This document shows, in pieces, positions 16,925 through 36,923 of a stretch of DNA of 60,485 nt; position 1 is the stretch's first letter; each line of letters begins with the position of its first letter. A program made the position numbers and the translations under genes. The stretch comes from Verrucomicrobiia bacterium (lineage in GTDB: Bacteria; Verrucomicrobiota; Verrucomicrobiia; Limisphaerales; CAIMTB01). Below the pieces are notes generated by a model, which saw only the letters and a list, made by a program, of their open reading frames with translations, ran no database searches and was not told the DNA's origin. The stretch spans positions 1 to 60,485 of the forward strand of contig JAHCBA010000041.1 of the NCBI GenBank assembly GCA_019634625.1, given 5' to 3'.

Positions 16925-17242
16925 CCGCCGTGCGCCAGCCCTTCCGATTTTTGCCGTCAATCGGCGGGCTTTCCGATATACCCGGGGACCAGCGTCCGGC
17001 CGCCGCCGGTGCAAACCATGAGCGAGCCGTTCAACATTGCCGCGAATTTCATCGCCGATCTTCGGCCTTGGAACCCGCCCGCGGAGGAACCGTTCCCCGC
17101 TCATTCCCCCGGAAGGTCCCCATCGCGGCCACGGGTCTTGGAGCCGAACCCTCCCCAGATCCCCATTCATCCCCATCGCGAACCGGCTCGCGTGCGACCT
17201 TTCCTCCCATCGTCGAGCTTCGCTTCCTAGCCGTTCGAGCCC
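16925..17242. other. Intergenic stretch without a supported gene
   Basis: Between copy B and the Ig-protein gene. A 71-codon frame starts at 17018 but has no ribosome site and a Pro/Arg-rich, repeat-like composition. Nothing else was recognised; the promoter of the Ig-protein gene should lie here. Confidence 0.5.
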
Positions 17243-19183
17243 ATGCGCCTGGTCGTTCTCTTCCTTGCCGTTTCGGCCCTGATCGCGTCCTGGACGGAGA
17301 CCTATGCGACCTCCGGAACGACGGCCGTGGGTCCGCGCATCATCGAACAACCCATGGGCGGCAAGGCGGAACTGGGGGGCGATTTCATCCTGCAAGTCGG
17401 CGCCACGGGCATCGGAACCCTCCAATTCCAATGGTTCCTGGACGGCCAGCCGCTTCCCAGCGAAACGAGTGCCAGCCTGGCGCTGGTGAACCTCGACGAA
17501 GACCAGTTCGGTGCCTACACCGTCGTGGTCGCGGACTCGACAGGTTCCGTCATGAGCGAACCGGCCTTCCTGACCCTGGCCGCAAGCGCCTATCCGGTCT
17601 GGTTCGAACAACCGCGCGACGTCACGGCGGCGCTGGGCTCCGCTGCCCGATTCACCGCCGTGGCAACCGGTCCCGCCCCGATCGCCTATCGCTGGCGGCT
17701 CAACGGCAGTGACATCCCGGATGCCAACGGCCCGACGCTCGATCTGCCGTCGGTGAGCCTGGCGGACGGCGGCGCCTACACCCTCTTCGTGACCACGTCG
17801 ATGGGAACGCTTCGAAGCCAGCCCGCGGTTCTCCGCCTCGATCTTCCCGCCCTCCCGGCGACCTCGCGGTTCGCGGATCGTCCGCTGATCACCGAGGCGT
17901 CCGGGGCCGGCACCCTGCACAACGCGGGCGCCGTGTCGGAGACTGCGGCCGGCGAACCGCGCCATGCCGGCAAGCGGGGCGGATCCTCGGTCTGGTTCTC
18001 ATGGCAGCCACCGGATTCCGGGCAGGCCAGTGTCTCCACGGTTGGATCGAGCTTCGACACCCTCCTGGGCGTGTACACCGGCGACACCCTCGGCTCGCTG
18101 ATCGAGGTGGTCAGCGACGACGATCGCGGCGGCTACCGGACCAGCGCGGTGCGCTTCAACGCCGAGGCGGGCACGGTGTACCACATCGCCGTGGACGGCT
18201 TCGCCGGTGCCCAGGGCCAGGTGGTGGTGTCGTGGGATCTGCTGGCCAACGCCGGATTGCTCCCGCGCATCCTGATCGCCCCCGAGGACGACATCGCCAT
18301 CTCCGGAGGGGACAAGGCGCTGACCGTCAAGGCCGAAGGCGACGCCCTCACCTACCAGTGGTATTTCAACGGCATTCCCATCCCCGGCGCGTCGGATGCC
18401 ACCATTCCGCTGGGCACCGTTTCCGAAGGCCGGGCCGGGCTCTACGTCGTGCGCGTTTCCACCCCCGCCGGGGATACCATCGAGACCGTCGCGGCGCGCG
18501 TCGAGATCGCCTCGGGACCCGCGGCGGCGGCTCAGGACAAACTGGACGACCTCTTCGAGAACCCGCCGGCCTCGCCCCTCGCCCGACATGTGTTGAGTGC
18601 GGGCGGGTTCACCTCGGTGGCCCCGGGGATCCCCGGCTGGCGGGAAACCACCAATGAGGGAGCCCAACGGTCCCCGGAGGATCCCATCGTGTACGGCGAA
18701 CTGGGCGGCGCCACGCTGTGGTTCCGATTCCAGGCCACCGCCAGCGGCTGGATGCGGCTGAGCACCGAGGGCAGCTCGATCCCCGTCGTGCTGGGCGTCT
18801 ATACCAACCGCCACCGGCTCCAGCCCATCTCCGAAGCCAGGCCGACCCCGCCCGGGACCCATTGCGAACTGCTCTTTCCCGCGCACGCCGGCACCGACTA
18901 CATGGTCATGATCGATGGAGTGAACGGTGCCCAGGGAATCTTCCGCCTGTCCTATTCGATCGAACTCGCCCCGATCGACTCACCCCTCCTCACCCACACC
19001 TCCGAGGGCCTGCTCTATCAGCGACGGCTGCCTCCCGGACGGTATGCCATTGAAGCTGGAGACAGCCTCGCCCGCATGACCCCGTTGCTGGTCACCAACG
19101 CCGTTGACGGCGTGCTCCGGTTCCTCGACACCCGGTCCGGAGGGAGGACCCGCCACTTCTACCGGGTCACCGGACTCCCGTAA
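17243..19183 (+). CDS. Exported Ig-domain protein with PPC-like domains
   Basis: A 646-residue secreted protein. Signal peptide 1-23. Three Ig-like domains are visible: about 30-113 (IIEQP...LQFQWFLDGQPL...YTVVVAD), 115-197 (EQPRDVTAALGS...YRWRLNG) and 340-425 (LTYQWYFNGIPIPGAS). Two bacterial pre-peptidase-like beta domains lie between and after, one around SSVWFSWQPPDSGQ...TLLGVYTGD...YHIAVDGFAGAQG and one around ATLWFRFQATASG. The same WFSW/FDTLL/IAVDGF pattern recurs in the large protease at 19299-24980, so the two genes share module stock. The C-terminus ends in a short FYRVTGLP motif common on exported proteins of this group. Likely surface or secreted; ligand unknown. Confidence 0.82.
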   Translation: MRLVVLFLAVSALIASWTETYATSGTTAVGPRIIEQPMGGKAELGGDFILQVGATGIGTLQFQWFLDGQPLPSETSASLALVNLDEDQFGAYTVVVADSTGSVMSEPAFLTLAASAYPVWFEQPRDVTAALGSAARFTAVATGPAPIAYRWRLNGSDIPDANGPTLDLPSVSLADGGAYTLFVTTSMGTLRSQPAVLRLDLPALPATSRFADRPLITEASGAGTLHNAGAVSETAAGEPRHAGKRGGSSVWFSWQPPDSGQASVSTVGSSFDTLLGVYTGDTLGSLIEVVSDDDRGGYRTSAVRFNAEAGTVYHIAVDGFAGAQGQVVVSWDLLANAGLLPRILIAPEDDIAISGGDKALTVKAEGDALTYQWYFNGIPIPGASDATIPLGTVSEGRAGLYVVRVSTPAGDTIETVAARVEIASGPAAAAQDKLDDLFENPPASPLARHVLSAGGFTSVAPGIPGWRETTNEGAQRSPEDPIVYGELGGATLWFRFQATASGWMRLSTEGSSIPVVLGVYTNRHRLQPISEARPTPPGTHCELLFPAHAGTDYMVMIDGVNGAQGIFRLSYSIELAPIDSPLLTHTSEGLLYQRRLPPGRYAIEAGDSLARMTPLLVTNAVDGVLRFLDTRSGGRTRHFYRVTGLP

Positions 19184-19298: not shown

Positions 19299-22200
19299 TC
19301 ACGGCACCTGTCGTGCCCGATAGTAGCGCGACGCCTGGCGTGGCATCTCGGCGTCGCGGAACTCCAGGGTCCCGTCGGTCAGCGTGAACGTGCCGCGCTC
19401 GGTCCAGGACCGAAGGTCGGGCGACATCTCGATGGCCACCCGGCTTCCGGCGGCGCCCTCGACCGACAACACGAACGCTCCATCGGCCTGAGGCGCACCC
19501 GCCATCAAGCGGATCGGCACGATCTGCGGCACGGCCAGTTGGGCGGCGTCACTAACAACGGAACCGTAGTAGTTCCCGACGACCACCGAATACGTGCCGG
19601 CCTGGGTGGTGGCGACATTGGGCAGGCGAAGCACCGGATCGCTGGCTCCCTGCAGATCGGCCCCGTTGAAACGCCACTGGTAACTGACGGGTTCCCCGCC
19701 CTGGGCTCCCACGCTGAAGGTCACGTTGGCACCCGGCGGCGCCGTCTGGCTCTTCGGCTGGAGGACGATCGACGGAGCCTGACTTCCCTCGGCGGCCACC
19801 CGGTAATTGTCGAACACGAGGTAATTGTCGCCCGGGAAAAAGTCGTCCCGCGGAATCCACACCGCATCGATGTCCCCGAGATCGAGCGGCAACCCGGTGG
19901 TGGTGATGGGAGCGTTGTCCACCACCGGCTCACCATCGATGAAGGCCGTCCAGCGGTTCGCCGCGAAATCCATGACCACCACCAGGTCATAGATGACGTC
20001 GTTCTCGAAATCGTACCCGGTGTAGATGTAGCCCGAAGGGCCGTCGAGCCGGTAGAAGATGCCCAGGTTCGAGTTGTCGAAACTCAGCGTGAACAACCGC
20101 TCCGCACGGCGGTTGTACACGGACCATTCGAAGTCGTCGTAGGCCAGATTCCACGAATCCACGACCATCATCAGCACCGAGAACCGCACCACGGGTTGCG
20201 TGGCGGGGTTGGGCACGTAATCGAGCGGGCGCCACACATAGAGCGCATCCCCAAACCGGGTCGGGGGCCGGAACCCGACAAACGCCTGCTGACCCAGCCC
20301 GAAGAACGCACTGTCCACGATGCCGTTGCCGCCCGTTCCATCGCCCATCCAGCCGCCCTGCCCGACCAAAGGCAGCGCCGGGTTGAATCCTTCCAGCCGC
20401 TCGAACCGGGTCTCATACAGCACCTGCGGAGGGGCAACGGGCATGAGCCGGACGACCAGGAAGCCGCGGTCGCCTTCGTACCCGTCCACCGCAATGTGAT
20501 AGGTGGTGCCCTCCACCGCGGACAGCGCGACCTGGCTGGTGAGCATCCCCGGGGCGTCATCGTTGGAGGCCACTTCGATGAGGTTGCCCAGGCCGGTTCC
20601 CCGATACACCGCCAGGGTCGTGTCGAACCGGCTGCCAAAGGTATCGACGGACCAATCCCCGCTGGCAGGCGCCACCCATCGATACCAGACCGAACGTCCG
20701 CCCGGGGCCTCCGCGTGATCCGGTTCACCAGGTTCCACGGTCGCGCCCACATTGCTCCCGGAGGCCACCGCCGCCGCGCCCTCCAGGATCTCCGCGCTGG
20801 CGAAATGATCGTTGTTGGGACCCCCCGTCACACTGAACGCCACCGAACTCACGGCGTTGCCTCCAGGTGTCGTGACCCGTATCGCCCCCGGGGTCGCATC
20901 GGCCGGCACAATGGCCGTGATCTGGGTGGGCGAATCGACCGTGAAAGCGGCCGCACCGGTCTGGAAGTGGACCGCCGTGGCTCCCGCCAGATGGATCCCC
21001 TGGATGATCACGGTGGTGCCCACACCACCCGATGTCGGGCTGAACTGCGCAATGGACGGCGCATCCGGCGTGGAACCCCAGCGCAGGACGTAATCCCCGG
21101 CCAGGCCGACATAGCCGTCGATCGCAATGGCGTACTGGGTGCCACCCTGGGCGGTGAAGGTGACGCGGCTGGCCCGGTTGGCCAGATCCGGGGCGTCGTC
21201 GTTCTCCGCCACCAGCGTCAACGCCGTCACCTGCGTGCCGCGATACACCGCCAGCAGGGTGTCAAACGTGCTGCCCCCGGTGTCGAACGACCACGTGCCA
21301 TCCGCCGGCGCGGTCCAGACATACCACACCGATCGCCCGCCCAGATTGCCGGCGTGACCCGGTTCCCCAAACTCCTTCGTCGCGCCGACATTGCTCCCGG
21401 TGACGGTTCCGCTGGAACCGCTCAGCGGCATCGCCCCCGCGAAGAGATCGTTGGCCGCTCCGCTGTCGAGGGTGAAGGGCTGCGCACTCACAGCCGATCC
21501 GATCGATGTCGTCACCCGGATCGGCCCGGTCATGGCCCCGACAGGAACCGTGACGGTCAGCCGGTCCGCAGCGTGTACCGTGAACGTCGCCGCGGGAACG
21601 CCGCCAAAATCGACCGCAGTCGCCCCAATAAACCCGCTCCCCTCGAGCGTGACCACGGTCCCGGCCGCTCCGCGGACAGGGAAGAAGCGGGTCAGCGTGG
21701 GACCGGCCGTGATCGGGGCCCAATTGAGCAGGACCGATCCCGAGGCGGCCTGGGCTGGATCGGACGGGTTGGCATTGAACCCGTCCACCGCGATTCGGTA
21801 CGGCACGCCGGCCCGGGCGGTGACGATGACGCTGCTGTTGGTGCCTCCCCCGGCATCGTCGTTGGCGGCCACCTGCGCCAGCGTCGCCAGCGATTCGCCC
21901 TGATAGACCGCCAGCAGCGTGTCGAACGAACTCCCGAACGTGTCGAACACCCAGTTCCCATCCGTCGGCGCCTGCCATCGATACCAGATCGAGCGGCCCC
22001 CGCTGATGCCCGCATGGGCGGGTTCCCCGGCCTCCTTGGAAGCGCCGACCGTGCTCCCGGTCACCGAACCCGAAACGCCACTCAACAGCGCGGCATCGGC
22101 GAAGGCATCGTTGTTCGCACCCAGGACCACCGCAAAGGAAGCCGCACTCACCGCCGATCCCGAGGGCGTGACGACCCGCAGCGTCGCCGTCCCAGCCCCC

Positions 22201-24980
22201 GGCGGCACCACCGCCGTCAATCGTGTCGCGGATTCCACCTGGAAGCCGGCGGCCGGAACGCCACCAAACTCGACGACCGTCGCGTTGAGGAAATGGTCGC
22301 CCTGCAGAATGACGGTGGTTCCAACGGGCCCGCTCGACGGGGCGAAGCCGGCCAGCACCGGAGGAGGCAGGACGGTAAAGCTCCCGGCACTGGTGGCCGT
22401 TCCCTGGGGCGACGTCACGGCGATGGGCCCGGTGGTGGCGCCCGGCGGCACCGTGATGCCGATGCGGGTCGCCGATTCGACGTTAAACACCGCCGCCTGC
22501 CCGTTGACCGTCACCGCCGTGACCCCGGTGAAACTGGAGCCCAGGATGGTAACGGCCGTGCCGGCACCACCGCTCACCGGGCTGAAGCTGCCGATGACCG
22601 GAGCGGACGTCACCGTGAAGTTGCCTGCACTCGTCGCCGTTCCGCCCGGCGTCGTCACCGCAATCCGCCCGGTCGTCGCCTGGGCCGGGACAGTGGCCGC
22701 AATCTCCGTGTCCGAGCGGATCTGGAAGGTTGCACTGACGCCGCCGACAGTGACCGCCGTGGCGCCCGTAAACCGGGTGCCCTGCAGGGTGACCGTGCTC
22801 CCCGGCGCACCCCCCGGGGGTTGAAAGCTGGTGATGGCGGGACCGGCAGTCACCTCGAACGTCTGCGCGCTGGTGGCCGTGCCGCCCGGAGTCGTGACCC
22901 GGATCGGACCCGTCAGCGCCGCAGCCGGCACGACCGCCGTGATCTGCGAGGCGGACTGCACCGTGAACGGCGCACTCACCCCGTTGAACGTGACGGCGGT
23001 GGCATCGGTGAACTTGGTGCCGGTGAGCGTGACACTGGCCCCCACGTTGCCGCTGGCGGGTGCGAATCCCGTGATCGTGGGCGGACTCGAGGGGCCGTCC
23101 AGGATCGGTTCGCCCATGCGCACCCTCGCCCGAAAGGAGTTCCAGGTGCCCGTATCGCCCTGGAAGGCGTCCCGCACCGTCAGGGTCCAGGTGCCGGAAG
23201 GGTTCTCGCCCCAGAAGGCATTCGAGACGAACCACCAATCGAGGCTGCCCTGGTTGGAACGGTCGGCCAGTCCGTTCCGGATGAACAACCGGCTCGAGGT
23301 TCCCCGCGGGGAGGTGAGGTACGCCTCCAGGTCGCCCCGGAAGGTATGCTGGATGTTCAGGTGGATCTCGACCTCCTCCATCGGCGTGGTCGCGTCGATG
23401 TTGAACGTCCGGCTGATCTCCCCCTGGTCCGGAATCGGCGCGTTGACCGTCACCGGCTGGTTGTGCTCCGCCACCGTGAGCGGGGTGACGCCGCTGTACA
23501 ACGCCACCTGGCGCGTGAGGGCATCCGCATCGATCAGTCCGAACCCGTAGTTCGGATTGAAGGCGAACCCGGCGGCGTTGGTTCGCCACCCGCCATGGCT
23601 CGACGCCGTGCTGTCGCCGACGTCCACCACCCGGCTCGTTCGGGCCAGCGCATGCTTCGCGAGGCGCACGTTCATGGCGGGATTGGCCTGAACCGCGAGC
23701 GCCAGAATCCCGCTCACCAGCGGGGCCGCCGAGGACGTGCCCCCAAAGTCCCCCGTGTAGGCCCGGTCCGGAAACCCGTTCACCCCCGCTTCCGCAGGCC
23801 CCGGATTGTATCCCGGACCGGCCGAGCGGTCCGTCGTCGCGATGCCCGTCCAGGTGCCCGGCTGGCCATGCTCGCCCTGGCGCCGGCTGTTCGAGGGCGC
23901 GGTCACGAACACGTTCGCCCCGTAACAACTGTAGTCGGAGAAGATCCCGGCGCTGCCCAGCGCCGCCACCGAAATCACGTGCGGGCTCGCATTGATCGGA
24001 TCCTTGTTGGAGTCCTCCTTCGACTTGCCCCGCTCATTCCCCGCCGCCCACACGTGGATCGTGCCCACCCCGGCCGACGCCGCCGCCGCATCGCGCTCGC
24101 CGTCGCTGTTCACAAACGGCGCCCCCACGCCGTAACTGTGGTTCTTCACCTTGATCGTCTGGATGTTCCCGAAACTGTGGAACTTGATGACATCCACGAA
24201 GTCCGAAAGGCTCCCCCCACCCCCCAGCGGCACCCGAAGACCGGACAGACTCGCCAGCGGCGCCGCGCCCGTCACCCCGATCCCGTTGCCCCCGCGCGCC
24301 ACCGCCACCCCCGCCACCGCCGTGCCATGATTGTCGTCGGTGCGCACCGGATTCGGATTCGAATTCCGCTCCACGAAATTCCAGCTGTCCGCCGCCACGT
24401 AATTCGGCGCCAGATCCGGATGCGCCGTCTCCACCCCGTCATCCGCAATCCCCACCATCACCCCCGCCCCCGTCAGATTCCGGTTCCATGCCCCGCGCAC
24501 GTTGCTGTCCATCCCCGGACGCGCCGCGTTCACCAGGTGCCACTGACCCGGAAATCCCGCCGGATTGTTCGGACTGAAGAACGGGTCGTTCGGGACGAAG
24601 GCGCGGCGCCGGTTCTCCGACGGACGATCAAAGTACGCGGTCTGCACGCCTCGGTCCCCAAGCAGATCCCGCATCCGCTCCCGCGCCGCCTCGTCCGACG
24701 GCGCCTTCAGCACCGCCATGTTGGGATCACTGCGCAACCGCCGCACCACGTTCAACCCCCACCGGGCCGCGAACGCCTCGATGTCCGTCCCCTCCTTGAA
24801 TTCGATCAGCAACTCGGCCACCGGACCCAGCCCCTCCGGCGCCGGCAACCTCGCAATGCCCTCGTAATCCTTCACCAGCGGATCCGGCCCGGCCGCGTCG
24901 GCACCGGCACCCGGCAACGAAACCAGCATCATCCCTGTCAGGATCGCGATCAGGGCCGTCATGCGATGGAGTGGGCTCAT
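19299..24980 (-). CDS. Giant secreted kexin/subtilisin-like protease with TIG, PPC and Ig modules
   Basis: A 1,893-residue S8 protease. Signal peptide 1-30; prodomain about 40-120 (LLIEFKEGTDIEAFAARWGL); peptidase 140-460 with Asp180 (GIADDGVE), His218 (DDNHGT), oxyanion Asn315 (WAAGNERG) and Ser416 (GGTSSAAP). A P/proprotein-convertase domain follows (PIPDQGEISRTFNI...GTWTLTVRDAFQGDTGTW). Then come four TIG/IPT domains, a PPC-like domain, TIG, PPC-like, TIG and PPC-like, a LamG-like jelly roll, and a C-terminal Ig domain (VSYQWRFNGADLQGAS). The last residues, YYRARQVP, are a common tail in exported proteins here. It is translationally coupled to the upstream lipoprotein gene by an ATGA overlap. 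Likely a surface or secreted degradative enzyme; all catalytic residues are intact. Confidence 0.92.
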   Translation of the reverse strand: MSPLHRMTALIAILTGMMLVSLPGAGADAAGPDPLVKDYEGIARLPAPEGLGPVAELLIEFKEGTDIEAFAARWGLNVVRRLRSDPNMAVLKAPSDEAARERMRDLLGDRGVQTAYFDRPSENRRRAFVPNDPFFSPNNPAGFPGQWHLVNAARPGMDSNVRGAWNRNLTGAGVMVGIADDGVETAHPDLAPNYVAADSWNFVERNSNPNPVRTDDNHGTAVAGVAVARGGNGIGVTGAAPLASLSGLRVPLGGGGSLSDFVDVIKFHSFGNIQTIKVKNHSYGVGAPFVNSDGERDAAAASAGVGTIHVWAAGNERGKSKEDSNKDPINASPHVISVAALGSAGIFSDYSCYGANVFVTAPSNSRRQGEHGQPGTWTGIATTDRSAGPGYNPGPAEAGVNGFPDRAYTGDFGGTSSAAPLVSGILALAVQANPAMNVRLAKHALARTSRVVDVGDSTASSHGGWRTNAAGFAFNPNYGFGLIDADALTRQVALYSGVTPLTVAEHNQPVTVNAPIPDQGEISRTFNIDATTPMEEVEIHLNIQHTFRGDLEAYLTSPRGTSSRLFIRNGLADRSNQGSLDWWFVSNAFWGENPSGTWTLTVRDAFQGDTGTWNSFRARVRMGEPILDGPSSPPTITGFAPASGNVGASVTLTGTKFTDATAVTFNGVSAPFTVQSASQITAVVPAAALTGPIRVTTPGGTATSAQTFEVTAGPAITSFQPPGGAPGSTVTLQGTRFTGATAVTVGGVSATFQIRSDTEIAATVPAQATTGRIAVTTPGGTATSAGNFTVTSAPVIGSFSPVSGGAGTAVTILGSSFTGVTAVTVNGQAAVFNVESATRIGITVPPGATTGPIAVTSPQGTATSAGSFTVLPPPVLAGFAPSSGPVGTTVILQGDHFLNATVVEFGGVPAAGFQVESATRLTAVVPPGAGTATLRVVTPSGSAVSAASFAVVLGANNDAFADAALLSGVSGSVTGSTVGASKEAGEPAHAGISGGRSIWYRWQAPTDGNWVFDTFGSSFDTLLAVYQGESLATLAQVAANDDAGGGTNSSVIVTARAGVPYRIAVDGFNANPSDPAQAASGSVLLNWAPITAGPTLTRFFPVRGAAGTVVTLEGSGFIGATAVDFGGVPAATFTVHAADRLTVTVPVGAMTGPIRVTTSIGSAVSAQPFTLDSGAANDLFAGAMPLSGSSGTVTGSNVGATKEFGEPGHAGNLGGRSVWYVWTAPADGTWSFDTGGSTFDTLLAVYRGTQVTALTLVAENDDAPDLANRASRVTFTAQGGTQYAIAIDGYVGLAGDYVLRWGSTPDAPSIAQFSPTSGGVGTTVIIQGIHLAGATAVHFQTGAAAFTVDSPTQITAIVPADATPGAIRVTTPGGNAVSSVAFSVTGGPNNDHFASAEILEGAAAVASGSNVGATVEPGEPDHAEAPGGRSVWYRWVAPASGDWSVDTFGSRFDTTLAVYRGTGLGNLIEVASNDDAPGMLTSQVALSAVEGTTYHIAVDGYEGDRGFLVVRLMPVAPPQVLYETRFERLEGFNPALPLVGQGGWMGDGTGGNGIVDSAFFGLGQQAFVGFRPPTRFGDALYVWRPLDYVPNPATQPVVRFSVLMMVVDSWNLAYDDFEWSVYNRRAERLFTLSFDNSNLGIFYRLDGPSGYIYTGYDFENDVIYDLVVVMDFAANRWTAFIDGEPVVDNAPITTTGLPLDLGDIDAVWIPRDDFFPGDNYLVFDNYRVAAEGSQAPSIVLQPKSQTAPPGANVTFSVGAQGGEPVSYQWRFNGADLQGASDPVLRLPNVATTQAGTYSVVVGNYYGSVVSDAAQLAVPQIVPIRLMAGAPQADGAFVLSVEGAAGSRVAIEMSPDLRSWTERGTFTLTDGTLEFRDAEMPRQASRYYRARQVP

Positions 24981-25537
24981 GGAGTGGAGTCGGGTCGGGT
25001 CCGGCGGGGAACGTGAGGAACTCTGATGTCGAGGTACGCCGAGCGGACCGCAGGGTCGCCCTGAAGCCGGGACAACGCCCGGCGCGCCTCCTCCTCCGAA
25101 GGCGCCGACAGCACATGCATGTCCGCGTCACTTTGCAGCGTGCGCACCCAGGTCAGACCATACTGCGCCGCCAGATCCCGCGCCGCCGTGCCGGGTGCCA
25201 GCGAAACCAGCAGATCGCTCGTTCCCGGCTCCGGTACCGGCGAGTCCTCGGGCATGGGTGGTTCCTTGACGGCGTTGGCGTCCTCGATGGCGGCCCCCCC
25301 CTCCGGTCGCGACCCCGCTCGATCGAACGGCTCGGCGGCCTGCACGGGCGCGGGGTCGATGGCGTGCCTCGTCCCCGTCCCGACATCGCCCGGCATGGGC
25401 GCGCATCCCATGGCACCCAGGGCCGCCACCAGGCACCCCAGGCTGCCCGTCAGGCGCCCCCCCGGCCCACCGGGCAATTCCCCCCGCCGCCCCCGTGAAC
25501 GGGCCGGTCCAACGGTCCCCTTGATTGCCGGTTGCAT
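24977..25537 (-). CDS. Lipoprotein with stand-alone subtilisin prodomain-like domain
   Basis: A protein of about 186 residues, start uncertain (25537 chosen; no good ribosome site). A lipoprotein signal ends in LGAMGC (Cys45). Residues 50-105 are an acidic, Pro-rich linker. Residues 108-171 (DLLVSLAPGTAARDLAAQYGL, then LQSDADMHVLSAPSEEEARR, then AVRSAYLD) align by eye with the prodomain of the protease encoded next (ELLIEFKEGTD...ALKAPSDEAARERM...VQTAYFDR). The stop overlaps the protease start in ATGA, so the two are made together. A likely role is folding helper or inhibitor held at the membrane; this is inference. It could also be a remnant of a second protease cut off after its prodomain. 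Confidence 0.7.
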   Translation of the reverse strand: MQPAIKGTVGPARSRGRRGELPGGPGGRLTGSLGCLVAALGAMGCAPMPGDVGTGTRHAIDPAPVQAAEPFDRAGSRPEGGAAIEDANAVKEPPMPEDSPVPEPGTSDLLVSLAPGTAARDLAAQYGLTWVRTLQSDADMHVLSAPSEEEARRALSRLQGDPAVRSAYLDIRVPHVPRRTRPDSTP

Positions 25538-25676: not shown

Positions 25677-25934
25677 TCAGCGGCGGGGTGAAAGGCGTGG
25701 GGCTTCACCGACCCGCGATTGGGCGGATCCTGGCGGAGACTTCGTCTCCGGAATGGGCTGAACCTGGCCGCTTCGGAGCTCCTCCAGACGTCGCTCAACC
25801 TCCGCCTTCCACGCGGCTTCGATTTCGGGATCGACGGCATGCAGCCGCTCCCCGAGACGGTCCGCCAACTGGATGCGCGGTTCCTGCGCCCAATCGCGGC
25901 TTTCCTCAACGATCTGTTCCACGGTCCGTGGCAT
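25677..25934 (-). pseudogene. Frameshifted addiction-module antitoxin (Unstab_antitox-like)
   Basis: The frame starting at 25934 gives MPRTVEQIVEESRDW, RIQLADRLGERLHAVD and EAAWKAEVERRLEELRSGQV, the pattern of the short PF09720-type antitoxins. After VQPIPE it becomes unrelated sequence. Reading one base out of phase from about 25755 gives GDEVSARIRPIAGR and a stop, which is the expected family ending. A one-base loss is therefore likely. No RelE/ParE-type toxin gene follows on the minus strand. If the read is right, the module is dead. Confidence 0.6.
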
Positions 25935-26188
25935 GGCGCTACGGCAGGCGTTCGGGGCTGGCATTCAACGTCTCTCCTTGCGGGGTGGTGCGCCTACGGG
26001 CGCATCTCAGTTCTTTGCAGCAGGTCTCGTAATCGCACTCGTGATCGTGATTGTCCTCCCCAGTGCCCACGTTGAATGGGAGATCCGAGCGGGACAGATC
26101 CCATCGGGCCAAGGCGACGCTCGAAGAACTGACCCGTTTAAGGGTCTCAGAGGTTCCGATCCCCGCCGCCACCGGGCCTTGAGCCACG

Positions 26189-26390: not shown

Positions 26391-29300
26391 TCATGGCTCT
26401 TCAATGAGGCGGAAGAACCGGTGGGGCGACGCGTCGCCGTGGTCCGGCTCGGGGTGGAACGGCCATGCGCCAGGCGGGAACCCACCGTCGAGACGCCGCC
26501 ATTCGAGGAGATCGGTCGAGGTTTCGAGCCGGTAGGTCCGATGGGATTCGCCCGTCACGCGGAGAAGCCAGCGTCCGTCGGGAAGAGGTTCGACACCGTC
26601 GAGGCGCGGCGGTTCAGGAGGCCGCGATTCCAGCGTCGCGGTCTGGGGAAGGAGCGGGATCAGTTCGAACCCATCCGGACTGATCTCCCCTGCCGTCAGT
26701 TCCACCCGCCAAACAGCCCGGGCGGTGGCGCCGGGCAGCACGATGAACGGAATCTCGGCGACGAGGGCGTCGGCATCGGCATGCCAGGACCGGGCACTCA
26801 CGACGGCGAAGTCGAGAAGCCCGTCCGGATTCCCGGATTCCGGTTCGGAGTCGAGGCGCCAGCGACCGAGGGTTTGCAGGGCCGGAAATCCATGGGCGCG
26901 TGGCGTGAGGTTCGCCGGGATGCGCAGCGCGTCGGCGGGATAGCGTATCCGGAAGACAACGCCGGCGACGTCCGGGAGCAGCGGGGAGGCATGCAGGCGT
27001 GCCACGGTGGTTTCGCCGGGCGTGGCCCGCGGGGGATGAAGGCTGAGCCGCAGAGGTGGAGGTGGGGCGTGGGTGGGCATCGAGGCGAGCGCCGGACGCG
27101 GGGACGGAAGCGGGGACGGAAGCGGGAAGCCATCGAGGAGCGCGAAGCTCGCGATGGCCGGGTCCGCCGAGTCCAGGGTGCCGTTGCCGTCCAGATCATT
27201 GCCGGTGAGATCCCAACGACGGGGAATGTCGTGCAGGGTCACATACCGGAACATCATCGCGGCATCTCCGACATCGACGCGCTCGTTGGCATTGATGTCG
27301 CCGACGACGGAGCGCGGAAGGATGCGGACGTCCGTGCCGGCGAGGTCGGTGCCGAGTTCCAGGGAAGCCCCAAGGGCATCGGTGAGGGTGAGCAGTTCGA
27401 GGCTGACCGGAGTGGCCACGGGTTCCGGGACGGAGCGGCACCGGAAACGGAGGGTCACCGGATGGCCGGAGCCGTCCGGGAGGCGGCGTCCGTCCACCAT
27501 GAGTCGAAGCTGGCCCGGTTCATCGAGGACCGCCGAGACGGCGTCCGCGGCGGCGGAGTTGGGGAACAGAAGCTGGGGCGAACCGAGGTGATCCGGATCG
27601 TAAAGGATCCGCAGGCCGGCCTGCGAGATGACGTTCGGGATGTCCCATCGGAGGGGGACGTCGGTCCAGGTGCCTTCCTGACGGGGTTCGGGTGGATCCA
27701 GCCAGAGGCGGCGTACGGCGGTGACCTGGAGCACGGCGGCATCACTGAGGGAACTGCCGCCGTGACCGCGGATGGCGACGGTGTACCGGCCGGCATGGTG
27801 GGAGCGGAGCGGACCAAGCTCGAGGGTGGACTGGATGGCGCCGGGGACGGGGGATCCTTCGAACATCCATTGGTAGGTCAGACCTTCGCCCATGGCGGCC
27901 ACGGCAAGGCGCACCGTGTCGCCGGCGGGCGCGGACTGGCTCCGGGGCTGGGTCACGATGACCGGCGGGAGTCCGGATCGCAGTGAGAACGAGGTCAGGC
28001 TGGTGAGCGGGGCGGGCGGCGTCGTTCCGCCTCCGGCGATGACCGTGACGATCTCGGATTGGCCCATCCGGCCAGCCTGTGGATTGGCGTCTTCCCACGT
28101 GTGGCCCGCGGCCAGGTCCCAGGCGCGCAGCCGGACGTAGGCGATGCCGCCGGGCTCCACCCCGGGAACCAGGCGCATGGCGGACGGGGCGGCGTCCACG
28201 TACCCGGCGTCCGTGCCCGACAGGAACGGGGCGGCGGGACCCAGGGGCGTGAGAGCATCCGGAGTGGGGCCGGCGAGGAGGTCCGCACGAAACTGGGAAC
28301 CACTGACCGGCGTCGCACCATCGACATCGAGCACCGGGGCGTCGAGCAGGCCCACGATGCGGTTGGCGAGCAGAACGCTGCCCAACGGGACGGAGGCGGC
28401 ATTGAGGTTCACCTGCACGACGGCGGGCTGGCTGAGGGCGGATCCGGCGACATTGGAGACGCGGACCCGATACGTTCCGTTATCGGAGGGCAGACTGATC
28501 GGGACAACCAGCACCGGGCCGGTGTGACCCGGAAGAAGCTGGTCGTTGCGATACCATTCGAAGGTCAGGGGCGCCGTCCCGGAAGCTTCGACCGCCAATG
28601 CGAACGGATAGGCAATGAGGACTTCGACATCGGCCGGATGGGAGCGGATGACGGGTGGCTCGGGGATCTCCACGACGAAGGTGGCCACGACGGGTTCGCC
28701 GGCCGGGACGTCGTCCCGGAAGGGCGCGGCCCGGAGCACCGTGGAAGCGCCCAGGACCAGGGGACCCGTGTAGCGGGGTGAACTGGCCGTCGGGGCGAGG
28801 CCGTCGGTGGTGTAGCGGAGAATGAGTTCGGGGAGGTTGGCCAGCAGGCGCACCGTGACGGGAGCGGTGTAGGCGCCGCCCGGTGGAACGATCTGAACCG
28901 ACGCCGGATCCCGCGCCGCCGTGGCGCCCGGATGGGCGTAGAGAAAGGCAACCTGGGCGTCGGTGAGGGCGATGTCGTACACCTGCAGTTCGTCCAGATC
29001 GCCCTCGAAGGTGCCGACGATCGCTCCGGCATCGAAGCCGCCGATCACGGCACGGGCGGGAGACGGTACGGGCGTCTGGGCGAAGTCACCCGCCTCGGCG
29101 GGGCGACCGTCCACAAGGATCTCCATGCGCCCTCCCTGGTGCGACCGCAGCACCACGTGATGCCAGGCACCGTCGTGGACCGGCGTGATCCCGGTGATCT
29201 GCATGCCCCCGACCAGGGCGCTGGCACGTCCGGCCGTGTCCGGAATTCCCACCGGGTTGAGGAAGAGTCCGTAGCCGTTGGGCTGTCCCGGCCGGTGACG

Positions 29301-32300
29301 GGTGAGAATGGCCGCCAGTTCGGACGCCTGGCCGGGAGGAGTTCGAACCCAGGCGGCAACGGTGAAGCCCGGGCTGTCCAGCGGCAGGCTCCTCCCGAGA
29401 TCGACGTAGCCGTTGTCGGCACGCCGGAGCGACAGGGCCCCACCGGCCACACCGTCGGGAATGAACGAGGCCCCTCGCGGCGAGAGCACGCCCGGATGGC
29501 GTCCGGTGGTGTCCTCGACCCCGGGACCAGCCAGCTCGTCGAACCGCCAGTGGGCCAGCAGGGAACTGACGGGAGCGGCGGCATCCCGGTCGATCTCGAA
29601 CGATGCGGTCTCGATGGCGGTGACAGGTTGGCCGTCAAGGAATCCCCGCACGCGCAGGGTGCCCGACGTCGTCAGGACCAACGGCTGCGTGTAGATCGAA
29701 GACTCGATCCGGGGTTCCGTGCCGTCGGTCGTGTAATGGATCCGGACGTTGTCCAGGACGATCGCCACCCGCACCGTCACCGCGTCCCGGAAGATTCCTC
29801 CGCGGGGCACCAGATGGAGTCGGGACGTGGCGATGGCGTCGAGGGACCGGTCCGGGTGGGCGAAGAGGGCGTCCACCTCCGCATCGTTCAGCGCGAAGTC
29901 GTACACCTGGACCTCGTCGAGGTACCCGGTGAAGGTGCCGGTGGGGACTCCGGGATCGTGCCCTCCGAGGAGGGTCAGGGCCCCGGTGGGTTCGCTGGCC
30001 CCGGCAGGTGCGACGGCGCGAGGCGGGGTGCCATCCACGTAGAGGCGGACCGTTCCGCCGGTTTCCCGCACGACCACCACATGGTGCCAGCCGCCGTCAT
30101 TGACCGGAACGCGCGTCGCCACAACCGAGCCCGGGCCGGCGCTGGCGGCCAGGGTGTGGCCAAGGTAGTTGAGGGCCAGGAAGTGCCCGTTGTGGGATCC
30201 AGGTCGGTGTCGGGTGAGAAGGCCGGCGAACGGGGTGACATCTCCCGGCGGCAACCGGAACCAGAGCGAGATGGAATGCGGCGAGTCGCCGGGCGGCAGG
30301 AATTCGCCCAGGCGGACATGTCCGTTGGCGCTCCGGCTCAGGAAGAGACTGCCGCCCGCCACCCCTTCCGGAACGAACGTGGCCCCGGATGCGGAGAGGA
30401 CACCCGGCCAACGGCCGGTTTCGTCCGGGGCGGAAAGTCCGCCGAGCGAATCGAGGCGCCAGTGGGCGAGTAGCGTTCCACGATGGGTGGGGTTGGGTTG
30501 GAGGAGGTATTCCTCGACGACGACGGGCGAGATCGGGATCCCGCCCACGAAGGCGCGGGCGCGGAGGGTCACTCGGGCTGTGAAGGTGAGCGGACCGGCG
30601 GCCAGCAGGGATTCCACCGTGGGTTCGGTCCCGTCGGTGGTGTAGCGGACTTCGGCCTCCGGCCGGGGGGAGACGCACTGCACCTGAATCCCGCCGGTGA
30701 ACGTGGTGGACGAAGGCACGACGATCAGCGGGGACAGAAGATCGCTTGCCAGGGGAAGTCCGGGATGGGCGAAGAGCACTGCCACCTCGGCAGACGTCAC
30801 CGCCCTGCCATAGACCTGAACATCATCAATCGCCCCTCGGAACGTCCCCTTGGGCACACCCGGGTCGAGTCCGCCGAGCACGACCTGGGCGGGCGACGTC
30901 AGGACGGGCGGGGCGGGCGCCATGGAACCGACGCTCACGGCATCGATGAACAGCCGCGCCTCCCCCTCCGGATCGACGCTCAGGACGACATGGTGCCATG
31001 TCCCGTCGTTGATGCGGGGGCCCCCGGTGATCACCCGACCCGACCCGACATGGGCCGACACCGCGTGGTGGGCGCCGTCCATTGCAAGGAAGTAGCCATT
31101 CCCGGTGCCCGGCCGGTGTTTCGAAAAGAGGACCGCTCCAGAAGTCAGGGTGTCCGGCATGACCCGGACCCACAGCGCCACGGAGAACGGCGTGTCGAGC
31201 ATCGGCAGAACCTCTCCGAATGCGACGTGCCCGTTCAGGGAACTCTCGAACTGCAGCGCCCCGCCCGCGATTCCCCCCGGAACAAGGGTCACGCCCTGGG
31301 TGGACGCCCTGCCGGAATGCCGGGCCAGGTCGTCCAGAACGACCCCGTTGGGGAGGGCGTCCAGCCGGTAATGCGCGATCAACCCGCCGGACGACGGCGG
31401 CGCGGCGATCGAGGTGTATTCGGCCAGACCGACCGGGGACACCGCATGCCCGTCGAGAAACGCGCGGGCACGCAGCGTGGTGGTGGAGGTGAGGGGCACC
31501 GGAGCGTGATGGAGGGGGCTCGTCGGCGTGGGGTCCGATCCATCCACCGTGAAATGGATCGATGCGCCCGGCACCTCCGTGGTCAATCCCACGGCGACCA
31601 TGCCTTCGAAGGCCCCGGACGGCGGGTCGAACACGGGAGGATTCCAACTGGCGACCCGCAGTTCCGCAGCCTCGCTGAAGATCCCGTCCACCGGATTGGC
31701 CACCGCCACGTAATAGGTCCCGGCATCGGCAAAGGTGACCTGGTTCAGCACGAGGGTCGCGCCGTCGGGCCCGCGCTCGGATACCGGCACTCCTTCCCGG
31801 AACCACTCGTAGAGGATCGGCTCGCTTCGCGACTCCGCGACGACCCGGAATGTGGCGGTGGATCCAACGGGGATGGTCACATCCTGCGGTTCCTCGAGGA
31901 TGCGCGGGATCTCCGACAGCGGGAGCCTCGGCAGGACTTCCACGAGCCCGTTGCCGCTGGACACCACGCCGGCGGCATTGACGACGTCCACCCGGTAGTT
32001 CCCTGCGTGTTCCGGACGGGCCTCGGCGATGGAGATGACCGTACCCTCGACCTCCGGCATCGGCGCATCCTCAAACCACCAGACGTAATGCAGGGGTTCG
32101 GGACCCACGGCCTCGACGTGGAGGTACATGGGATGGCCGATCTGGAAGATGGCGTGCCTCGGGAAGTACCCGATCACCGGCAGACCCGGCGTGGGCTCGG
32201 CCCTGGGAACGTCGAGGGTCCGTCCTGGATGGGTTCGCAGGAATTCGATCTGGTCCCCCGAAAGCGCAAAGTCGTAGTACTGGACGTCATCCATCCGGCC

Positions 32301-35300
32301 CGTGAACAGGCCCACGGGCGGGTCGGTGTCCAGTCCCCCAAGCACCATCGCGGCGGGCGTCGAGAGGACGGGCCCGGCCATGCCGGACGCCACGGGCTCG
32401 GGGCCGTCGATATGGATTCGGACCCGGCCGGCGGCATCATGGGTCACGACAAGGTGATGCCATGCGCCATCGTTGACGGGGGTGTGGGCACCGAGAACCA
32501 GGGCACCACTGAAGGCCTCGACCGAGTGCCCGTTGGCATGGAGACGGAGGAAGTGGCCACGGTGGGAGCCCGGGCGGTGCTTGGAAACGATCATCAGATT
32601 CTGCGCGGTCGTTCCCGGTTCGAGCCGAACCCAGACGGAAAGGGTGTAGGGCTGATCCGCCATCCCCAGGACATCCCCCACCATGACCCGCCCGCCCCGT
32701 CCCTGATCCAGATCGAGCGCATGGCCGTCCACACCGTCAGCCGTCCAGCCGGCGCCGGAACCGACCAGGCGCCCGGGATAGGTTCCGGCGTCGTTATGGG
32801 CCAGCAGCCCGGAGCCCTCGTCGAAACGCCAGTGGGCCAGCAGCCGCCCCGTTGGGATCGGCTCCGGGACGACTTCGAAGGCGGCGGAACCCACCGCTGT
32901 CACCGGCTGGCCGGCACGAAACGCGCGCACCCGGAGTTCGGCCGTCGCAGTGAGTTCGATCGGCCCGGTGTAGCGCGGTGAGTCGAGGACGGGGTCCGTG
33001 CCGTCCAGCGTGAAATGGAGGTCCGCATCGGACCAGGGGACGATCAGATGGATCGGTCCGGTCCGGTCGGTGAAAATGCCTCCCCTCGGGAGGATCAACA
33101 CCTCTTCGGGGGCGGCCTCGTGGAGGGTTGAACCCGGACGATCCCGCAGACGGTCGATCTGACCGGGGGCCAGCGCGAAGTCGTACACCTGGACGTCATC
33201 GAGATCCCCAAGCAGGCCACCGCGGGCACCCTGGGTCGTGTCGTTGTATCCGCCGAGGAGGAACCCGGCGGTCGAGGGGACAATCCGCCCGACGCGGACG
33301 CGGGCGCGAAACAACCCGCCATCGACATAGAGCCGCACCGTCTCGGTGGCCAGATCGTAGGTCATGGCCACATGATGCCATGCGCCATCCTTGGGGAAGC
33401 CCTCCGCATGAACCATCGCCACATCCCCGCTGTAGGCGGTCATCTGACCCCGGTCAGGCTGGACACTGAGGAAGTATCCGTTGCCATACCCGCCGTTGTG
33501 CCTCGAAAACAGAGCCGCATCGGACGCCAGTCCATCGGCCGGCAACCGTGTCCAGAGGGCGATGGTCCACGACTGGTCGAGAAGAGGCAGGATGTCCCCG
33601 AAGCGGACGTAACCCGCCCCGTTTCGACCCAGCGACAGGGCGGCACCGGACACCCCATCCGGAATGTATCCGGCGCCTGCGTCGGAAAGGAGCCCGTGAT
33701 GGTCCCCCGCACTATCGGGCACGATGCCGTCCGGCCCCCCGTCGAGACGCCAATGGGCCAGCAGACGGCCCGTGCCTTCCGGAATGGGATCGATCACGAA
33801 GGACGCCGACACCTCCGGGGAGACGGGTTCGCCTCCCAGAAAGGCGCGGGCCCGGATCTCCGCCGACTGCCTCAGCAGGACCGGTCCGTCGTAATGCGGT
33901 GCCGCCTCGGTGGGGGCCGAGCCATCCAGGGTGTAGTGGATGCGCGAACGACGGTCCCAGGCGTCCATCGTGAACACCACTTCCTCTGCATGACGCCCCC
34001 CCTCCGGTTGGATGCGCAGGGGTCCCGCAGAGGTCTCGGGAAGCGGGGCCTCCGGATGGTCGAAAAGGTGTTGGGCCTGGAGATCGCTCAGCGCGAAGTC
34101 ATAGAGGCGCATCTCATCCAGGGCGCCGTCGAAATCGCCGACGGGCCGGTGAACCACATGGGCTCCGACAAGGCTCACGGCGTCGGAGGGCGGGACCGGG
34201 ACCCCTTCCGTCCGACCCACCCAGCGTCCCCCGTCCACAAGGACGCGGAGTTCCCCGCCGGGTTCGTAGGCCATGACGACATGATGCCATGCGCCGTCGC
34301 GCAGCCAGGGCTCAACCACCGCCGCGGCTGCCGTTCCGTTCTGGACCGTGACGGCGTAGCCACCGGCGTTGAGAACGATCTGCGGTCCGTCCCGCCAGAG
34401 AAAATGAGAGGTCCCCCCGCTCGCTCCGTCCGCCCGAATCCACAAGGAAACCGAATGGGTGCGGTCCGGCGACGGGAGGTGGCCGGGCAGTCGGACATGG
34501 CCGCTGGCGGCTGCCCGCAAGGCAAGCGCCCCCCCGACAAGACCGTCGTCGATCCAGCGGACCCCCGCTTCAGAGAGGGTCCCGTCGTACCGCCCCGTCT
34601 CGTCCCGGACCCTCCCTCCCGCCCCATCGTCGAAGGTCCACCGGGCAAGCAGCGGACCGGTGGGGACCGGAACGGGTGTGACCTTGAACCACGCCGCCAC
34701 GACATCCGAAACCGGCGTGTTCCCCGTGAAGGCCCGCGCCCGCAGCGGGGTGGGCTGGGTCAGCACCAGGCTGCCCTGGTAGAGCGTGGAATCCGCGTCC
34801 GGATCGCTGCCGTCCGTGGTGTAGCGGATCTGCGCGCCTGGTTGCGACGCGGACAGCACCACGCTCAGCCCGCCGATCGCCGAGGCGCCGGGGGGTACGA
34901 TTTGCAGGGGGACCTCCCATTCGGGAAACAACGGGACACCCGGCTGGGCGCGAAGAACCTCGAGCTGGGACTCGGTGAGGGCGACATCGTACACCTGCAA
35001 GTCATCAAGATGGCAGGACACCCCGCCGCCCATCACCGCAGGGGCCGGCGTGGCACCGACGGGTTCGGACGCCGCGACGACCCGGGGCGCCCCGCCGTCC
35101 ACGTACACCTTGAGCCCGGCCGTGGCGGAATGGGTCATCGCCACGAAATGCCAGTGGCCATCCCCGAGGGACGGCACCTTGGCGACCGCCTGACGGCTTC
35201 CCACCGTTGCCGTCACCGCCTGGAGTCCATCCGCCCAGCCGAGCGAAAAGGCGTACCCGCCCGGCTCGCCGGGCGCCGCCTTTGAAATCAGGTGGCCTTG

Positions 35301-36653
35301 CACCACGGACGAATGCGGCGGCAGCAGGACCCACCCGGCGATGGTGAAATCCGTGCCGAGCAAGGAAAGCCCCTGTCCCACATCCACACGGCCCCGAACA
35401 TTGCCATCGAGGCCAAGGGCGCGTCCGGAGACGCCTCCCTCCGATCGCCAGACGCCCGGCGGGCGCAGCGTTCCGTGATGGACGCCGGTGCCGTCGATCA
35501 CCAACTCGCCGTCCGGCTCATCGAAGGACCACCGAGCCAGAAGCCTGCCGGCCGGGGGCGGTGGGATCGCAAAGGTGAACGCCGCCGCCACCACCTCCGA
35601 TGCAGGCACCCCGTTGGTGAAGGCGCGGGCCTGGAGCACGGTGTCGGCCCGCAACCGCCACGGTTCGGTGTACCGCGGCGACTCCGCGGTCGGCGTCGCA
35701 CCATCCATCGTGTAATGCAGATCCACATGGGGAAGCGGAGTCAGGAGCGACACCGTGACCGGTTCCTCGAAGCGACCCCCCGCCGGGACGATCTGGAGCG
35801 GCGGCGGCAGCGGAATGAAGAGCGATTCCCCCGGATGACGGAACAGCTCGTTCACCTCCTCCTGGGTGAGGTCGAAGTCGTAGATCTGGACCTCATCGAT
35901 CCAGCCGGTGAACGCGCCGACCGGCTGTCCCTGGGCGCCCGTGCCGCCCAGGACGAGATGGGCGTTGGCGTGGCTCACCGGGCCAGCGGAGGCGGTGGCC
36001 ACCGGCATGCCGCCGTTCACGTACAGCCGGACCAGGCCGCCGGCCGAACGGGTCATGACGATGTGGTGCCAGGCATTGTGATCGAGCGCCGGTCCCCCCA
36101 CCACCAGCCCGCCGGGCCCAGCATAACCAACGACCGACCCCATCACATGAGGGGTTCCAAACGCAGTGAGATGAAGGAAGAGAAAGTAGCCCTCGTGCGG
36201 CGGACTCTCGTACCGGCCGATCAGCGCCGAGTTGGCCTCGCCACCCCCGGGAGGCTGGTGCACCCACAGCGAGATCGTGAACGGCGTGTCGGTCAGCAGC
36301 AGCACGTCCCCCGCTGACACGTAACCGTTCCCGCTCCGGCCCAGGACAAGCGCCCCGCCCGAGACGCCTCCATGCGTGAACGCGGCTCCAGTCGGCGACA
36401 GCGTGGCGGGATGGCGCCCGGTTTCGTCCGCGGCCACGCGGGTTCCGGGCGGTTCATCGAAACGCCAGTGAGCGAGCAGATGACGCAGCCTGGGCGGCGG
36501 TTCGATTCCGGGCTGGCCGTGGGCCGTCGTGGAGCCGTAGGGAAGGGCCAGGGACAGAGCCATCAGGCCGGTTGCGACACAAACGAGACGACATGCGCGG
36601 GAGAAATCGCCGGAGGCGACGCTCCACGCCCGTCCGGGTGGGTGGGAGGACAT
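26391..36653 (-). CDS. 3,420-residue LamG/chitobiase-like repeat protein with dockerin-like segment
   Basis: A giant exported protein with a long basic signal sequence (about 45 residues, ending TTAHG). The body is eight units of about 280 residues, each a LamG jelly roll (LLAHWRFDE..., HHVVMTxD, DDVQVYDFAL) followed by a chitobiase/beta-hexosaminidase C-terminal-like domain (LHYTLDGTDPT...SPRYTGP...LRARAF). Two Ig domains interrupt after the fifth LamG and two more follow the eighth unit. Then a cohesin-like beta domain and a dockerin-like calcium pair (GDINANERVDVGD, NDLDGNGTLDSAD), another beta domain, and a tail ending HRFFRLIEEP. There is no catalytic domain, so adhesion, polysaccharide binding or scaffolding is likely. 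Start at 36653: the 101 upstream codons are repeat DNA. Hairpin-element copies C and D lie just outside both ends. Confidence 0.88.
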   Translation of the reverse strand: MSSHPPGRAWSVASGDFSRACRLVCVATGLMALSLALPYGSTTAHGQPGIEPPPRLRHLLAHWRFDEPPGTRVAADETGRHPATLSPTGAAFTHGGVSGGALVLGRSGNGYVSAGDVLLLTDTPFTISLWVHQPPGGGEANSALIGRYESPPHEGYFLFLHLTAFGTPHVMGSVVGYAGPGGLVVGGPALDHNAWHHIVMTRSAGGLVRLYVNGGMPVATASAGPVSHANAHLVLGGTGAQGQPVGAFTGWIDEVQIYDFDLTQEEVNELFRHPGESLFIPLPPPLQIVPAGGRFEEPVTVSLLTPLPHVDLHYTMDGATPTAESPRYTEPWRLRADTVLQARAFTNGVPASEVVAAAFTFAIPPPPAGRLLARWSFDEPDGELVIDGTGVHHGTLRPPGVWRSEGGVSGRALGLDGNVRGRVDVGQGLSLLGTDFTIAGWVLLPPHSSVVQGHLISKAAPGEPGGYAFSLGWADGLQAVTATVGSRQAVAKVPSLGDGHWHFVAMTHSATAGLKVYVDGGAPRVVAASEPVGATPAPAVMGGGVSCHLDDLQVYDVALTESQLEVLRAQPGVPLFPEWEVPLQIVPPGASAIGGLSVVLSASQPGAQIRYTTDGSDPDADSTLYQGSLVLTQPTPLRARAFTGNTPVSDVVAAWFKVTPVPVPTGPLLARWTFDDGAGGRVRDETGRYDGTLSEAGVRWIDDGLVGGALALRAAASGHVRLPGHLPSPDRTHSVSLWIRADGASGGTSHFLWRDGPQIVLNAGGYAVTVQNGTAAAAVVEPWLRDGAWHHVVMAYEPGGELRVLVDGGRWVGRTEGVPVPPSDAVSLVGAHVVHRPVGDFDGALDEMRLYDFALSDLQAQHLFDHPEAPLPETSAGPLRIQPEGGRHAEEVVFTMDAWDRRSRIHYTLDGSAPTEAAPHYDGPVLLRQSAEIRARAFLGGEPVSPEVSASFVIDPIPEGTGRLLAHWRLDGGPDGIVPDSAGDHHGLLSDAGAGYIPDGVSGAALSLGRNGAGYVRFGDILPLLDQSWTIALWTRLPADGLASDAALFSRHNGGYGNGYFLSVQPDRGQMTAYSGDVAMVHAEGFPKDGAWHHVAMTYDLATETVRLYVDGGLFRARVRVGRIVPSTAGFLLGGYNDTTQGARGGLLGDLDDVQVYDFALAPGQIDRLRDRPGSTLHEAAPEEVLILPRGGIFTDRTGPIHLIVPWSDADLHFTLDGTDPVLDSPRYTGPIELTATAELRVRAFRAGQPVTAVGSAAFEVVPEPIPTGRLLAHWRFDEGSGLLAHNDAGTYPGRLVGSGAGWTADGVDGHALDLDQGRGGRVMVGDVLGMADQPYTLSVWVRLEPGTTAQNLMIVSKHRPGSHRGHFLRLHANGHSVEAFSGALVLGAHTPVNDGAWHHLVVTHDAAGRVRIHIDGPEPVASGMAGPVLSTPAAMVLGGLDTDPPVGLFTGRMDDVQYYDFALSGDQIEFLRTHPGRTLDVPRAEPTPGLPVIGYFPRHAIFQIGHPMYLHVEAVGPEPLHYVWWFEDAPMPEVEGTVISIAEARPEHAGNYRVDVVNAAGVVSSGNGLVEVLPRLPLSEIPRILEEPQDVTIPVGSTATFRVVAESRSEPILYEWFREGVPVSERGPDGATLVLNQVTFADAGTYYVAVANPVDGIFSEAAELRVASWNPPVFDPPSGAFEGMVAVGLTTEVPGASIHFTVDGSDPTPTSPLHHAPVPLTSTTTLRARAFLDGHAVSPVGLAEYTSIAAPPSSGGLIAHYRLDALPNGVVLDDLARHSGRASTQGVTLVPGGIAGGALQFESSLNGHVAFGEVLPMLDTPFSVALWVRVMPDTLTSGAVLFSKHRPGTGNGYFLAMDGAHHAVSAHVGSGRVITGGPRINDGTWHHVVLSVDPEGEARLFIDAVSVGSMAPAPPVLTSPAQVVLGGLDPGVPKGTFRGAIDDVQVYGRAVTSAEVAVLFAHPGLPLASDLLSPLIVVPSSTTFTGGIQVQCVSPRPEAEVRYTTDGTEPTVESLLAAGPLTFTARVTLRARAFVGGIPISPVVVEEYLLQPNPTHRGTLLAHWRLDSLGGLSAPDETGRWPGVLSASGATFVPEGVAGGSLFLSRSANGHVRLGEFLPPGDSPHSISLWFRLPPGDVTPFAGLLTRHRPGSHNGHFLALNYLGHTLAASAGPGSVVATRVPVNDGGWHHVVVVRETGGTVRLYVDGTPPRAVAPAGASEPTGALTLLGGHDPGVPTGTFTGYLDEVQVYDFALNDAEVDALFAHPDRSLDAIATSRLHLVPRGGIFRDAVTVRVAIVLDNVRIHYTTDGTEPRIESSIYTQPLVLTTSGTLRVRGFLDGQPVTAIETASFEIDRDAAAPVSSLLAHWRFDELAGPGVEDTTGRHPGVLSPRGASFIPDGVAGGALSLRRADNGYVDLGRSLPLDSPGFTVAAWVRTPPGQASELAAILTRHRPGQPNGYGLFLNPVGIPDTAGRASALVGGMQITGITPVHDGAWHHVVLRSHQGGRMEILVDGRPAEAGDFAQTPVPSPARAVIGGFDAGAIVGTFEGDLDELQVYDIALTDAQVAFLYAHPGATAARDPASVQIVPPGGAYTAPVTVRLLANLPELILRYTTDGLAPTASSPRYTGPLVLGASTVLRAAPFRDDVPAGEPVVATFVVEIPEPPVIRSHPADVEVLIAYPFALAVEASGTAPLTFEWYRNDQLLPGHTGPVLVVPISLPSDNGTYRVRVSNVAGSALSQPAVVQVNLNAASVPLGSVLLANRIVGLLDAPVLDVDGATPVSGSQFRADLLAGPTPDALTPLGPAAPFLSGTDAGYVDAAPSAMRLVPGVEPGGIAYVRLRAWDLAAGHTWEDANPQAGRMGQSEIVTVIAGGGTTPPAPLTSLTSFSLRSGLPPVIVTQPRSQSAPAGDTVRLAVAAMGEGLTYQWMFEGSPVPGAIQSTLELGPLRSHHAGRYTVAIRGHGGSSLSDAAVLQVTAVRRLWLDPPEPRQEGTWTDVPLRWDIPNVISQAGLRILYDPDHLGSPQLLFPNSAAADAVSAVLDEPGQLRLMVDGRRLPDGSGHPVTLRFRCRSVPEPVATPVSLELLTLTDALGASLELGTDLAGTDVRILPRSVVGDINANERVDVGDAAMMFRYVTLHDIPRRWDLTGNDLDGNGTLDSADPAIASFALLDGFPLPSPLPSPRPALASMPTHAPPPPLRLSLHPPRATPGETTVARLHASPLLPDVAGVVFRIRYPADALRIPANLTPRAHGFPALQTLGRWRLDSEPESGNPDGLLDFAVVSARSWHADADALVAEIPFIVLPGATARAVWRVELTAGEISPDGFELIPLLPQTATLESRPPEPPRLDGVEPLPDGRWLLRVTGESHRTYRLETSTDLLEWRRLDGGFPPGAWPFHPEPDHGDASPHRFFRLIEEP

Positions 36654-36749
36654 AGGCGGTCGCGACGCACAGGCGGGCGCGCGATGGGCGGACGCTGACA
36701 GGTCCGGAAACGGGTGCAAGCCACCCGGGGCGACTCTGGGTCCGACGGG

Positions 36750-36906: not shown

Positions 36907-36923
36907 GGGCCCCGGGGTCGGCG

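Follow-up and report, generated by a model that had tools for sequence, protein, structure and literature searches.

Stand-alone, prodomain-like inhibitors of subtilisins are known from fungi, plants, and apicomplexans, e.g. Plasmodium SUB1-ProM, Toxoplasma MIC5, the yeast proteinase B inhibitor, Pleurotus proteinase A inhibitor 1, and Arabidopsis propeptide-like inhibitor 1, and the SUB1-ProM gene adjoins subtilase genes (PMC6993865). Free propeptides are tight inhibitors of their own subtilases, in the nanomolar range for a hyperthermophile and in the micromolar range for Bacillus, and the free prodomain binds its enzyme with its tail reaching into the active site (PMC10580911). In the dentilisin operon prcB-prcA-prtP of Treponema denticola, a lipoprotein gene lies upstream of the gene for a subtilisin-family (S8) protease, and the membranes retain an acylated N-terminal PrtP fragment (PMC8167434).

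The window analyzed here, i.e. the whole stretch of 60,485 nt, contains a small gene for a predicted lipoprotein with a subtilisin-type prodomain, which overlaps the gene for an S8 protease (Table 1). Like the eukaryotic stand-alone inhibitors, it is a small separate gene that encodes a prodomain fold without a catalytic domain, and it lies beside a subtilase gene as does SUB1-ProM. In contrast to them, it is bacterial, its product is a predicted lipoprotein with a putative inhibitory function, it overlaps the protease gene, and it shows clear sequence kinship to the prodomain of that very protease. It also differs from what characterizes such inhibitors in that the relatives sampled have no such separate gene, which is confined to this genome among those searched. 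The order of lipoprotein gene and protease gene is that of the dentilisin operon. However, a prcA-like gene is absent here, PrcB has not been described as a copy of a prodomain, dentilisin's acylated fragment is derived from PrtP itself and not from a separate gene, and the PrtP equivalog model NF033595 matches the protease with 13.5 bits, below its cut-off of 300. The cis-encoded S8 prodomains (Fervidolysin_NPro-like, S8_pro-domain, Inhibitor_I9) share the fold and a sequence relationship with the copy, but the copy sits in a gene of its own.

A limited literature search found no published account of such a lipoprotein gene in a bacterium. Annotated bacterial I9-type proteins without a protease domain do occur; the combination of a separate prodomain, a lipid anchor, and coupling to the protease looks new.

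Table 1. Features of the lipoprotein gene and the protease gene; positions are those of the window
Feature	Positions	Strand	Details and basis
Lipoprotein gene with stand-alone subtilisin-type prodomain	24977..25537	(-)	186 aa, P0001; alternative TTG start at 25477
Predicted lipoprotein signal, h-region and lipobox (LTGSLGCLVAALGAMGC, Cys45)	25403..25453	(-)	PS51257-type pattern, prediction only
59-residue Pro/Asp/Glu-rich linker from lipid anchor to prodomain	25226..25402	(-)	low confidence in the AlphaFold model
Prodomain copy, lipoprotein residues 105-170	25028..25225	(-)	BLASTP, AlphaFold, structure matches; modelled elements beta107-113, alpha119-125, beta129-133, beta140-145, alpha148-158, beta164-170
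C-terminal tail of the lipoprotein, IRVPHVPRRTRPDSTP	24980..25027	(-)	alignment; position at which prodomain tails enter the active site
ATGA overlap, lipoprotein stop and protease start	24977..24980	(-)	stop TGA 24979-24977, start ATG 24980-24978
S8 protease	19299..24980	(-)	1,893 aa; ordinary signal peptide without lipobox, own prodomain, Peptidase_S8, P-domain, TIG/PPC repeats, Ig
Own prodomain of the protease, residues 53-118	24627..24824	(-)	BLASTP, alignment

The prodomain copy and its predicted lipoprotein

The first-pass annotation had proposed the lipoprotein gene without naming a strand and had matched its residues 108-171 by eye with the prodomain of the protease. The gene proved to be real and lies on the minus strand, and its lipid anchor is a prediction. 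The match was borne out by BLASTP, in which residues 84-170 align with residues 36-118 of the protease (41% identity, 59 bits, E=2e-14). From a multiple alignment, the bounds were refined to 105-170, with 44% identity over the 66 residues shared with the protease prodomain. When the whole genome was searched with the lipoprotein, the only significant matches were the lipoprotein itself and the N-terminus of the neighboring protease (E=7e-10); one further, marginal match was to its low-complexity N-terminus (E=0.04). Sub-threshold Pfam matches over the copy were to Fervidolysin_NPro-like, S8_pro-domain, and ORF_2_N, and the Inhibitor_I9 profile (PF05922) was absent among the matches of the lipoprotein at E values up to 10.

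In the AlphaFold model of the copy, which is based on an alignment of only 5 sequences, 61 residues have pLDDT values of at least 90. The prodomains of PC1/3, BPN', subtilisin E, and Tk-subtilisin are among its best PDB matches, and comparison with solved prodomains gave TM scores by target of 0.66-0.76 (isolated prodomains), Z values of 8.2-9.1, and an rmsd of about 2 to 5. Unrelated ferredoxin-like folds score just slightly below the prodomains. Because ferredoxin-like proteins share the fold, the fold alone is insufficient to identify a prodomain, and the sequence homology carries the weight. Judged by homology and prediction together, the domain is a complete, confidently modelled prodomain of the subtilisin type. 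The tail that follows it, 16 residues in length, ends in the alignment at the point where the mature enzymes of the relatives start (FVPND...).

The N-terminal half of the lipoprotein has no counterpart in the neighboring protease in the alignment. Its hydrophobic stretch closes with GAMGC, and the residue rules of PS51257 are satisfied at Cys45, so that the export signal is predicted from a pattern match. Counted from the ATG, this cysteine lies outside the usual range of 15-35; it would be residue 25 if the in-frame TTG at codon 21 were the start. A frame error at the G-runs (e.g. near 25300) was considered; the open frame and the high third-position G+C continue across them, but the N-terminal part of the gene may still contain such an error.

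The protease and the gene neighborhood

The protease contains all three triad motifs, i.e. IADDG from residue 178 (Asp), DNHGT from 216 (His), and GGTSSAAP from 413 (Ser), and its Pfam domains comprise Peptidase_S8, a proprotein-convertase P-domain, six TIG stretches, PPC, and Ig. A model of the protease with its own prodomain, built from four sequences, had a mean pLDDT of 31. The overlap in ATGA noted in the first-pass annotation is present, the stop codon of the lipoprotein gene and the start codon of the protease gene sharing these four bases. No Shine-Dalgarno-like sequence was found ahead of the protease ATG, which, together with the overlap, fits coupled translation of the two genes. 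A plasmid search was negative.

Just upstream of the lipoprotein gene, an ORF at 25677-25964 (-) matches Unstab_antitox (PF09720, E=1e-11), with TIGR02574 below the cut-off; no obvious toxin partner adjoins it. Further upstream, a 3,521-aa protein (26391-36956, minus strand) combines eight Laminin_G_3 with as many CHB_HEX_C_1 repeats and also has Ig and a weak match to dockerin. On the other side, the gene of a 650-aa Ig-domain protein (17231-19183, plus strand) is convergent with the protease gene; the protein matches parts of the protease repeat region, and its two close paralogues (50-53%) are encoded at a short distance from each other on G000:C11. The large secreted proteins ending at 19299 (-), 26391 (-), and 19183 (+) have a similar aromatic-aromatic-Arg motif at their C-termini (RYYRARQVP, RFFRLIEEP, and HFYRVTGLP, respectively), and the protease of L109 ends similarly in FYRIMMP. 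A shared sorting signal is possible.

Distribution, divergence, and constraint

Close proteases occur in three of 320 genomes of the order, where identity is about 55-59% over the N-terminal 490 residues or over the part present, and a phylum-wide sample added a fourth, more distant relative (G535). All four proteases have a single prodomain, which lies within the protease. Whole-genome profile searches and inspection of the upstream regions revealed no separate copy in these four draft genomes, in which the upstream sequence present amounts to 354 bases in L109 and about 3,200 bases in L107. Four congeners lack the lipoprotein or prodomain copy as well, and their S8 proteases are distant only (39% identity or less). 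With the lipoprotein sequence alone as query, the GTDB contigs gave no match; with the prodomain alignment as query, they gave three proteases only, which are those of G099, G276, and G259. Candidate separate prodomains, short frames in G036 and G005 that match the prodomain profile of Fervidolysin, were rejected because they run off contig ends. The gene pair, for which a search in other Verrucomicrobiota had been proposed, was thus not recovered from the order genomes, the phylum-wide sample, or the GTDB contigs, and it is known from one genome only.

In the proteases of G099 (L109:373-780) and G259 (L107:3223-3630), the prodomain is directly preceded by a lipobox match, which suggests a lipid-anchored prodomain after self-cleavage. 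No lipobox was matched in the proteases of G276 and G535 or in that of the window. A membrane-tethered prodomain therefore fits this protease group, in which it may occur in two arrangements, either on the enzyme or in a separate gene.

The same lipoboxes make a degenerate origin the main rival explanation: a tandem-duplicated lipoprotein protease would have lost its catalytic domain by deletion and left a functionless N-terminus, and a truncation of the kind of protease seen in two of the four relatives would leave just such a lipobox-prodomain N-terminus. That the pair is without an orthologue in the sampled genomes is also in line with a remnant. However, the frame of the lipoprotein is intact and ends cleanly in the ATGA with the protease gene, and neither a remnant of a catalytic domain nor duplicated upstream DNA was found at the locus. 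A relative with two such proteases, the second one intact, which the first-pass annotation had named as the sign of a truncated remnant, was looked for and not found.

The divergence of the copy bears on the same question. The 66 aligned codons of copy and protease prodomain show differences at 59% of the synonymous and 40% of the non-synonymous sites (dN/dS 0.50). We simulated neutral evolution with the protease prodomain as the start and the observed synonymous divergence (pS 0.59) as the end point; the mean identity in 300 runs was 14% and the maximum 39%, and a purely neutral duplicate is rejected by the observed 44%. When G099, G276, and G259 serve as outgroups, 6, 7, and 8 changes fall on the copy, compared with 9, 14, and 9 on the protease prodomain, and the FastTree branch of the copy is the shorter one (0.39 vs 0.79). 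The two are weakly supported sisters (83 of 200 replicates), and the prodomains of the four relatives group together in 162 of 200. The duplication of the prodomain is old, and because its identity exceeds that of the simulation and its change is no faster than that of the protease prodomain, the copy has been constrained for most of its history. Such a rate speaks against a functionless leftover; constraint followed by a recent truncation would give the same signal, a catalytic domain, if there ever was one, may have been lost at any time, and the conserved residues may reflect folding alone. Taken together, we regard a remnant as possible but less likely than a functional copy.

A proposed membrane-bound partner of the protease

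In the explanation that we favor, with a probability of about one half, a lipid-anchored prodomain acts in trans and caps the coupled protease as an inhibitor or holder. The prodomain of the protease would have been duplicated into a separate, membrane-anchored gene coupled to the same protease, so that translational coupling would yield both proteins together. A lipidated cysteine would keep the copy in the envelope, and the flexible linker of roughly 60 residues would allow it to reach the emerging or mature protease. Its beta-sheet would dock on the catalytic domain, and the C-terminal tail would occupy the active site in the manner of a product-like inhibitor. The protease would thereby be kept inactive at the membrane during export, until release or activation, and the cell's own envelope proteins would be protected.

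It is also conceivable, though less probable even than a remnant, that the lipidated prodomain serves as a surface tether that keeps the mature protease on the membrane, much as the dentilisin lipoproteins do with PrtP, and that inhibition is secondary. The protease has an ordinary signal without a lipobox, as opposed to the lipoboxes of two relatives, and PrtP of dentilisin depends for its presence on PrcB, the lipoprotein specified by the first gene of the operon, with which it interacts (PMC8167434). However, blocking of the active site is the normal role of prodomains, the many TIG/PPC/Ig modules of the protease could alone provide surface attachment, and PrcB has been described as unique to oral treponemes. 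Least probable is a folding helper that acts in trans and on which maturation of the enzyme depends. In mesophilic bacterial subtilisins, the prodomain is an obligatory chaperone (PMC10580911), and the lipoprotein is translated just ahead of the enzyme; the protease, however, has kept a prodomain of its own, and one suffices for four relatives.

An inhibitor or holder is thus preferred over an obligatory folding helper. The first-pass annotation had left both options open; the duplicated domain and its fold agree with it, as do the predicted lipid anchor and the gene overlap, its folding-helper half is weakened by the protease's own prodomain, and a trans-acting inhibitor for self-protection appears to be the best reading. 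Somewhat more tentatively, we propose that a maturation domain acting in cis has been turned into an envelope-bound safety catch acting in trans, an immunity-like partner, in a group that elsewhere lipid-anchors the prodomain on the enzyme.

If true, the lipoprotein would be a bacterial, operon-coupled, and membrane-anchored counterpart of the eukaryotic stand-alone prodomain inhibitors. The origin of the latter may be convergent; that of the copy is traceable to the prodomain of the adjoining protease, and the locus could therefore illustrate the path from a maturation domain to a separate regulator.
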